DNA from: Candidatus Acididesulfobacter guangdongensis
GTDB taxonomy: Bacteria > SZUA-79 > Acidulodesulfobacterales > Acidulodesulfobacteraceae
DNA: 64,000 nucleotides
Reading direction: 5' to 3'
Assembly: GCA_004195045.1 (NCBI GenBank)
Contig: SGBC01000002.1
Location: forward strand, 62,001-126,000
Shown here piece after piece: positions 22,979 to 25,320 of the stretch. How positions within the stretch are numbered: position 1 is the stretch's first letter; each line of letters starts with the position of its first letter. Position numbers and translations under genes: made by a program. Under the pieces are notes generated by a model. It did no database searches and was not told the origin of the DNA. It worked only from the letters and a program-made list of their open reading frames with translations.

Positions 22979-23082
22979 TTTTCCGCCTTTTTAAATTTTG
23001 TCTTTTCTTTTTTTATATATGCATATATGTAGTTATATATACTAGTATATACTATTGGTTATATTACATAGACACAATTAAA

Positions 23083-23162
23083 CTTTAATCCTGCAATAGA
23101 AAGTTATCTTTTGCTTAACCGAGCAAAGAAATGCATAAATATTTTCTATTGCAGGATTAAGG
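23083..23162. mobile_element. MITE-like element, copy A (80 bp), with target duplication
   Basis: The terminal inverted repeats TTAATCCTGCAATAGAAA (23085-23102) and its reverse complement (23143-23160) extend to CTTTAATCC/GGATTAAGG at the ends. The element is flanked by the 5-bp direct repeat TTAAA (23078-23082 and 23163-23167). It has no coding capacity, so it would need a transposase encoded elsewhere. It sits just downstream of SQR. Apart from this element and a possible 48-codon gene, the 22679-23261 gap shows nothing. Confidence 0.8.
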
Positions 23163-23261
23163 TTAAACTGTAAATATAGATAAATATAAACTCAAAATTT
23201 TAACCTGCACTGCCGAAAAATCTTCTGCGGTAAAGAAGCGGGAGATGTAAGACGCTCTGCT

Positions 23262-24842
23262 TTACGGAATTATTTTCCAGCCCGGTTTTGCCTGAAGTTT
23301 ATATAAAAATGAATAATGAAGACCTATTTTATACCAGCCGCCGGCTTTTCCCACTTCTGCCACGGAATAGTCAAGATTTCTTCCGTACTCAGGGTACTCT
23401 TTCCTGTTTCTTGCCACAGGATATACAGCTATCGTGCCGGCAAGTCCATTAAAAAAACCTTCTTTCATTGAAGCGACGCAAAGTCCTGGAGTACTTGCCA
23501 TAGACGCATTATGCGAAGGTTCTCTGCCTTCGACCATGTCAGCTATATTTAAAGCCGCAGCTTTACCTGACAATTCAGCCGTATATCCTGTTCTTGGAGG
23601 CGCAGGGCTTATTATCGTACCGTTAGGACTTTTGTTTGGTTTAGATAAAGGTCCGGGAGGAGCAAAGTTAATTCCTGCCGCAAAAATATTCTTATATAAT
23701 TGGGTCTGGTATGTTTTCGGCCAGTCAGGACCGTCTAATTCTTCGTAAGGTTTTCCGTAGGCAGCGTCTACTTTTATGAATCCTGCAGGATTGCAAATCT
23801 TTTCCTTTATATCTTCTCCGTTTTTTCCTATCCATTTTATAGAATTCCCGGTAAAAGGAGGAAGTAGCATCGCGAAATTGCACTCAAGTTCTTTGAATTC
23901 GCCGTTTATATTTTCAGTATATATCTTTTTATCATCTATTTTATGCACATGACTTCTTATCTGATGTTTAATATCGCAATAGTTAAATACCCCTTCAGCC
24001 ATCATCTCCGAAGTATATATTAACGATTCTTTCCTTACTTCAACGCCGTCCATACCGAAATCGCCAAGTTTGGGCTCGTTTGAAAGCCATGTTATTTCCG
24101 CCATGTCTCTCAGTTTTCTTTCAACAAGGTCATAATGGATATTTGCAATATATTCGAAAGCGGCTCCCTGACATGTGGCAGTTCCGTGTCCGGTCCCGAC
24201 AAAAATTTTAACCTTATCGCCCTTTTTCATTCTTTCAATTAATGCAAGATAGTTTTTTGCTGTATCCATCGCGTGATGCGGAGTACAAATTGAATTATTA
24301 TAACCGAATTCAGGATTTAGATTTTCGGTAGCTTCGAAATTTAATTTAGGACCCGTAGCCATAAGCAAAAAATCATATTCTATTTTATTTTGATTTGCTT
24401 CGTCGATATTTGCAGAATTAATATTATTTAACTTGTTTATATTTGTGTTTCCATTATGAGCTTTACCGTGAGTTGAATCTTGTTTTATATCTGCGTTTTC
24501 AGAGAGCATTTTGCTGCTATGCGTACTATTTAGGCTTTTGACATCGGAATCGATATCTGAATGTTCGATGATGACGAAATTATTGTCTGGATGAACTTCT
24601 TTTACAAACGCATGTTTAAAGTTAATATTTACTTTATCGTATATTTTTTTTAAATTAAATTGAGTTTTCTCTGCTTTCATTTTATTAACCCCTACCCATA
24701 CTAAAGAAGGCAGGTAATTAAATGTGGTGTTGGGCGTGATTACCGTTATTTCATGTGTTCCTTTATTTTTTAAAATATCATTAAGAATTAAAGCACCGTA
24801 ATGTCCGGCAAAGCCGCTTCCGGCTATTAGAATTTTAGCCAT
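23262..24842 (-). CDS. sqr: Sulfide:quinone oxidoreductase-like flavoprotein
   Basis: FAD-dependent disulfide oxidoreductase of 526 residues. The FAD motif is GSGFAG (8-13); the middle holds GTGHGTATCQGAAFEY (216-231) with C224, the family's catalytic Cys region; other Cys are C186, C289, C321, C350 and C455. The C-terminal part (about 410-526) carries a membrane-associating region (KEGFFNGLAGT, PGWKIIP). SQR oxidises sulfide to sulfur or polysulfide and reduces quinone at the inner membrane. Which Cys form the redox trio needs an alignment. Residues about 97-150 are a Ser/Asn/His-rich insertion. The gene is bracketed by two MITE-like copies. It could be a related FCSD-type flavoprotein subunit. 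Confidence 0.8.
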   Translation of the reverse strand: MAKILIAGSGFAGHYGALILNDILKNKGTHEITVITPNTTFNYLPSLVWVGVNKMKAEKTQFNLKKIYDKVNINFKHAFVKEVHPDNNFVIIEHSDIDSDVKSLNSTHSSKMLSENADIKQDSTHGKAHNGNTNINKLNNINSANIDEANQNKIEYDFLLMATGPKLNFEATENLNPEFGYNNSICTPHHAMDTAKNYLALIERMKKGDKVKIFVGTGHGTATCQGAAFEYIANIHYDLVERKLRDMAEITWLSNEPKLGDFGMDGVEVRKESLIYTSEMMAEGVFNYCDIKHQIRSHVHKIDDKKIYTENINGEFKELECNFAMLLPPFTGNSIKWIGKNGEDIKEKICNPAGFIKVDAAYGKPYEELDGPDWPKTYQTQLYKNIFAAGINFAPPGPLSKPNKSPNGTIISPAPPRTGYTAELSGKAAALNIADMVEGREPSHNASMASTPGLCVASMKEGFFNGLAGTIAVYPVARNRKEYPEYGRNLDYSVAEVGKAGGWYKIGLHYSFLYKLQAKPGWKIIP

Positions 24843-24941
24843 TTTTATTATTTCCTCCTAAAAATTTAAATTTACACCTATTTTCATAATTAATCAACAT
24901 TATAATTATACCTTAATCCTGCAATAGAAAGTTATCTACTC

Positions 24942-25032
24942 GGAAAAGGTGTTAGATTAATTTTTTTGCAAATATTTTCTTTGTTAATTGAACTACTCCA
25001 TATGCAAAAAAATAAAATCTGACACCTTTTCC
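24942..25032. repeat. Nested GGTGT/ACACC palindromic element inside copy B
   Basis: GGAAAAGGTGT (24942-24952) at one end and ACACCTTTTCC (25022-25032) at the other are exact inverted repeats, and the similarity continues inward for about 30 bases (TTTTTTTGCA against TGCAAAAAAA). The 91-bp unit is absent from copy A, so it looks like an insertion into the MITE. Confidence 0.65.
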
Positions 25033-25082
25033 TTTAATTGAACTATTCCATATGCAAAAAAATAAGATATGGCACCTTTTCC
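24983..25082. repeat. 50-bp tandem duplication in copy B
   Basis: 24983-25032 is repeated at 25033-25082 with five substitutions, both copies containing AATTGAACTA, CCATATGCAAAAAAATAA and CACCTTTTCC. The duplication covers the right half of the nested element. Confidence 0.75.
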
Positions 25083-25320
25083 TTATGTTTTGTTTAACCG
25101 AGCAAAGAAATGCATAAATATTTTCTATTGCAGGATTAAGATTATAATATACTGTATATTATAACATTTTTATATATAAATATATATATTAAAATATATA
25201 TATTTATATTATTTGTATAATCGGTATGGAAATTATATAAAATTATAATTTTGCCGCTTGGTTTTTTTAATAATTAAACTTATAATAAAGCTATAAAAGC
25301 TAACGAAAATAATAAAGCTA

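Follow-up and report, generated by a model that had tools for sequence, protein, structure and literature searches.

MITEs with IS1380-type ends flank a sulfide:quinone reductase gene in the acid-mine-drainage bacterium Candidatus Acididesulfobacter AP2

Two short repeats stand on either side of a sulfide:quinone reductase gene in the acid-mine-drainage bacterium AP2 (Candidatus Acididesulfobacter), and by every feature tested they belong to a MITE family with IS1380-type ends. Judged from sequence, they are very probably non-autonomous IS1380-type MITEs moved by an IS1380-family transposase acting in trans.

Two insertions beside a host gene

Both copies lie within the window, here meaning the whole 64,000-nucleotide stretch of DNA that was analysed, and the first-pass annotation of 23083-23162 and 24911-25141 as copies with 18-bp perfect inverted repeats and common inner borders proved exact, base for base. 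Copy 1 (23083..23162, forward strand; assigned from sequence, family consensus and folding) is a short (78/80-bp) MITE, here 80 bp with C...G borders and a single hairpin fold, placed between left and right target duplications TTAAA at 23078..23082 and 23163..23167. Copy 2 (24911..25141, forward strand; assigned from sequence and end pairing) is a composite MITE of 231 bp with C...A borders, its final base being A where G is usual; it combines the same ends as copy 1 with an inner palindromic module, and its target duplications TTATA occupy 24906..24910 and 25142..25146. That each copy has its own 5-bp direct repeat, TTAAA or TTATA, as previously noted, follows from the sequence itself. The two copies have in common an 18-bp inverted repeat without mismatches, TTAATCCTGCAATAGAAA, together with the inner borders GTTATCT and AACCGAGCAAAGAAATGCATAAATA. 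The 16-base end, searched across the window at 0-1 mismatch, matched only their four ends (at up to 3 mismatches, six matches against 0.89 expected).

The gene between the copies, on the reverse strand at 23262..24842, is a host gene outside the elements, assigned by sequence to sulfide:quinone reductase from its open reading frame and structure-database matches (PDB 3sz0 and others, E 4e-33). No open reading frame of at least 60 aa was found within copy 1 or copy 2, in agreement with the earlier description of both as non-coding. Copy 1 forms a strong hairpin when folded (z -8.6); its Rfam match to mir-4679, which lies far under the gathering score and occurs on either strand, was rejected as a hairpin coincidence.

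A high-copy intergenic family

Many further copies had been predicted for the genome, and 130 ends in 2.2 Mb are what was found: across the 2,217,123 bp of AP2 (5 contigs), the 16-base end CTTAATCCTGCAATAG has 130 matches at no more than 2 mismatches, against 1 for a reversed-pattern control. The 80-bp copy used as a query recovered about a dozen near-full-length sites at 95-100% identity. Pairing of inward-facing ends in 60 stretches (450 kb) around listed ends, a sample covering part of the 130, gave 43 paired elements of 77-230 bp, most commonly 78 or 179 bp, with two of the pairings sharing an end. Copy 1 is the consensus of the 78-bp form, from which the 78-bp copies diverge by 3.7% on average. 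Overlap with open reading frames of at least 100 aa was seen for 0 of the 43 elements, as against 77% of random positions in the same stretches; high copy number, short length and terminal inverted repeats are the properties of MITEs. One copy (L081:2669-2898) carries an inner inverted-repeat insert, CCCAACTTCACCAC...GTGAAGTTGGG, bordered by TTAA repeats; this insert may represent a further MITE family lodged within the present one.

Among relatives, the end (a 17-mer, at most 1 mismatch) is present in 26 of the 30 genomes of the bacterial family, with 115 matches in AP2, 38 in G002, which is the congener Ca. Acididesulfobacter diazotrophicus (AP1 in PMC6776010), 28 in G006, 41 in G023 and 20 in G009, and with only 0-5 in G001, G003, G004 and G005; of 31 genomes outside the bacterial family, 2 contain it, once each. 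Such patchy abundance is as expected for bursts. A few copies seem older, because a MITE-like end at L073:2766 has similar flanks in G001 and G003 (L064, L066), and an end of this type apparently predates the divergence of these species.

Target duplications and empty sites

With each element taken as C+end...end+G and the 5 outer bases compared, the 5-bp duplication is perfect in 26 of the 43 pairs and agrees at no fewer than four of five bases in 33. When these AT-rich flanks were re-paired at random, the means were 1.9 perfect duplications and 6.5 at the looser threshold, with a maximum of 9 perfect in 2000 trials, and shifting the offset by 1 to 4 bases left only 0-2 perfect duplications. 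The 5-bp duplications foreseen at other sites are therefore present in the family, and at the predicted offset only.

The sulfide:quinone reductase gene has orthologues, 94-96% identical, in three sister species (G001, G003 and G005), and copy 2 is absent at the orthologous site in all of them. The empty junction bears a single ATTATA target in G001 and G003, so that TTATA occurs there once, as had been proposed for homologues of the empty site; in G003 the sequence past the target continues as it does past the second TTATA of the window, and in G005 the target is slightly diverged. For copy 1 the comparison is uninformative, since the same three relatives are without the whole stretch of ~200 bp downstream of the gene (22980-23260), copy-1 site included. 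Elsewhere in the genome, a 179-bp copy (L085:1778) and a 115-bp copy (L085:7003) are missing from all three species and, by match coordinates, the pair at L072:16200 is absent from G001 and G003. Taken together, duplications and empty sites demonstrate that a transposase inserted these elements.

Composite and half elements

Composite copies and truncated elements had not been anticipated in the first-pass annotation. Longer MITE copies carry a module, here termed B (GGAAAAGGTGTCAGATTTTATTTTTTTGCATATGG...AATCTGACACCTTTTCC), which in copy 2 extends over 24941..25083 on the forward strand as GGAAAAGGTGTTAGATTA...TCTGACACCTTTTCC with a second half that is repeated in part. Intergenic and some 90 bp in length, B consists of two copies of a ~15-bp motif in inverted orientation; its ends (GGAAAAGGTGTCAGA...TCTGACACCTTTTCC) have 160 matches in AP2, within MITEs, next to a lone MITE arm or free-standing. 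Because it also stands alone, B represents a separate repeat of REPIN-like build. In G002 and G009 the MITE ends surround another palindromic doublet, TGGATTCCCGC...GCGGGAATCCA (L062:1499-1661 and L068:1499-1662). A search for a RAYT gene linked to B gave no consistent neighbourhood, B lying near 2 of the 26 Y1 transposase loci in the bacterial family; AP2 itself has an IS605-type TnpA/TnpB pair (L146, G000:C3:159668) and a Y1 fragment, and neither B nor MITE ends were found near that pair.

More than half of the good unpaired ends (29 of 46) are half elements consisting of one MITE arm and B (L082, L085, L092, L114 and others); their outer MITE end is exact, and on the other side they stop at the edge of B or a few bases from it. 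Those half-element sites for which a comparison was possible are vacant in relatives, most right junctions being blurred by fast-evolving AT-rich DNA, and no target duplication above chance was found at offsets 0-12; the cleanest example (L085:11269) has the exact outer MITE border and about 5 bp of target gone on the B side. An origin by loss of one arm at the B hairpin, rather than by insertion as halves, is favoured. A further proposal, which we regard as speculative and rather doubtful, is that two unrelated non-autonomous systems have merged, namely MITEs with IS1380 ends and a REPIN-like core doublet (another doublet in sister species), and that an enzyme acting on the doublet would trim one MITE arm at its edge, leaving half elements without a duplication.

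Direct transposition has also been considered, with the edge of B serving the IS1380 transposase in place of its usual right end, in the manner of ISEcp1, which employs alternative right ends (PMC2887853). This reading would account for 29 half elements with an exact outer end that stop at or near B, and for the several half-element sites unoccupied in relatives, but it appears unlikely given the lack of duplications above chance over the same offsets and the loss, instead, of target sequence at L085:11269, while the loss of one arm subsequent to insertion accounts for the halves at least equally well.

Likely source of the transposase

No IS1380 transposase was detected in AP2, either by the PF13701 model or by searching with the protein of a sister genome (G002); PF13701 searches of relatives recovered several IS1380 transposases in sister genomes. 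Within the bacterial family to which AP2 belongs, complete elements of IS1380 type carry CTTTAATCCTTCCATAGA or CTTTAATCTTGCAATAGAA at their ends and are flanked by 5-bp duplications. The idea that a full-length element with the same ends would enclose a transposase gene thus holds for sister genomes, where the element is of the IS1380 family, and not for AP2; candidates within AP2 (C4:94013/97744 and others, their ends separated by 3.7 kb) resolved into separate half and short elements.

The G002 element (contig C21), 1.6 kb long with ends CTTTAATCCTTCCATAGA and duplication TTTTA, has an intact 420-aa transposase assigned to IS1380 by NF033539 (203.5 bits against a cut-off of 180) and recognised also by PF13701, and plasmid relatives of the sister-genome IS1380-type transposase are annotated as IS1380 family. 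With the G002 protein as query, a second element was located in G022 (C19), with ends CTTTAATTTTGCAATAGAA and CTTTAATCTTGCAATAGAA (end pattern CTTTAAT[T/C]TTGCAATAGAA), duplication GTTAA and a frame-shifted transposase gene. In a third genome, G016, CCTTAATCCTGCAATAGAAA is found 118 bp upstream of the start of a transposase (C60) that is 65% identical to that of G002 over the part present. In another G016 copy (C87) the interior is the same but the sequence beyond the end is unrelated, which identifies CCTTAATCCTGCAATAGAAA as the border of this insertion sequence. This border is identical to the MITE end at 20 of 20 bases; both copies are apparently cut by contig ends, the other end and their own duplication being out of view. 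The ends of the G002 and G022 elements differ from the MITE end by 2-4 mismatches in 17, and both elements have 5-bp duplications and the same extra C/G border as the MITEs, with the sequence common to MITE and insertion sequence confined to the terminal ~20 bp.

Given the matching ends and duplications, action of an IS1380 transposase in trans on the AP2 copies is the most likely explanation of their movement, with IS1380 transposons of sister species as the likely source of the enzyme. By the ends of these sister elements, the transposase that the earlier annotation had placed elsewhere would most likely be an IS1380-family enzyme. Such a DDE transposase would recognise the ~20-bp end, move the short elements and make 5-bp staggered cuts in AT-rich intergenic DNA, from which the 5-bp duplications would result. 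It may now have been lost from AP2, may have come only transiently, or may lie in the unassembled remainder; as none is detectable there, the AP2 copies look stranded and the family is probably immobile in this genome at present.

The missing enzyme could alternatively belong to another family that makes 5-bp duplications (e.g. Tn3-type or IS4-type), in which case the resemblance to IS1380 ends would be due to coincidence or convergence; this view draws on the link to IS1380 being through the ends only, with no IS1380 transposase in AP2, and on a less than exhaustive search for other transposase families. We consider this very unlikely, since ends of this type occur in three independent IS1380 elements from this bacterial family, one of them identical over 20 bases, and two share the duplication length and the extra border bases. 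Host-selected dispersed palindromes, either regulatory or structural (REP/ERIC-like hairpins or terminators), could explain strictly intergenic placement, the strong hairpin of copy 1 (z -8.6) and the palindromic, partly REPIN-like B without transposons, but are hardly credible in the face of duplications and empty sites that mark transposase insertion and of a copy number that varies among congeners from 0-5 to 115. Copies inserted as IS1380-type MITEs may have a later host role.

Relation to known systems

The analysis links an abundant repeat, from an uncultured lineage of acid mine drainage, to a transposon family that already has a name, and describes a clear MITE burst whose transposase is no longer detectable in AP2; because one persists in sister species, cross-mobilisation is directly testable. 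The composite of MITE and B is the most interesting part, as REP-like doublets nested in MITEs and differing by species raise the question of how two kinds of repeat interact. A keyword search, with incomplete coverage, of papers naming both IS1380 and MITE returned no IS1380-derived MITE, which is weak evidence of novelty, and transposons, insertion sequences and repeats are absent from the main text of the AP2 genome paper (PMC6776010).

ISEcp1, a member of the IS1380 family, makes 5-bp duplications at AT-rich sites and can use alternative right ends resembling its own (PMC2887853). The AP2 MITEs likewise duplicate 5 bp of AT-rich targets, and their ends are of the type seen in IS1380 elements from within their bacterial family; unlike those elements they have no transposase gene, measure 78-231 bp as against about 1.6 kb, and have only the terminal ~20 bp in common with them. 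Bacterial MITEs are described as non-coding, intergenic elements of 70-300 bp with 15-30-bp inverted repeats, moved by insertion sequences with similar ends (PMC3733652), and the AP2 family resembles RUP, NEMIS/Correia, Nezha and MITEPye1 in size, inverted repeats, lack of coding capacity and intergenic placement. It differs from MITEPye1, which is tied to IS1182, in having ends tied to IS1380, and from bacterial MITEs in general in that the core of many copies is formed by an unrelated palindromic doublet. That doublet, B, resembles REP doublets and REPINs (cf. PMC3116915) in pairing a short palindromic motif with its inverted copy and in being intergenic and also free-standing; it departs from REPINs with their RAYT in that the search tied no RAYT gene to it and in that it lies mostly within or beside a MITE arm.
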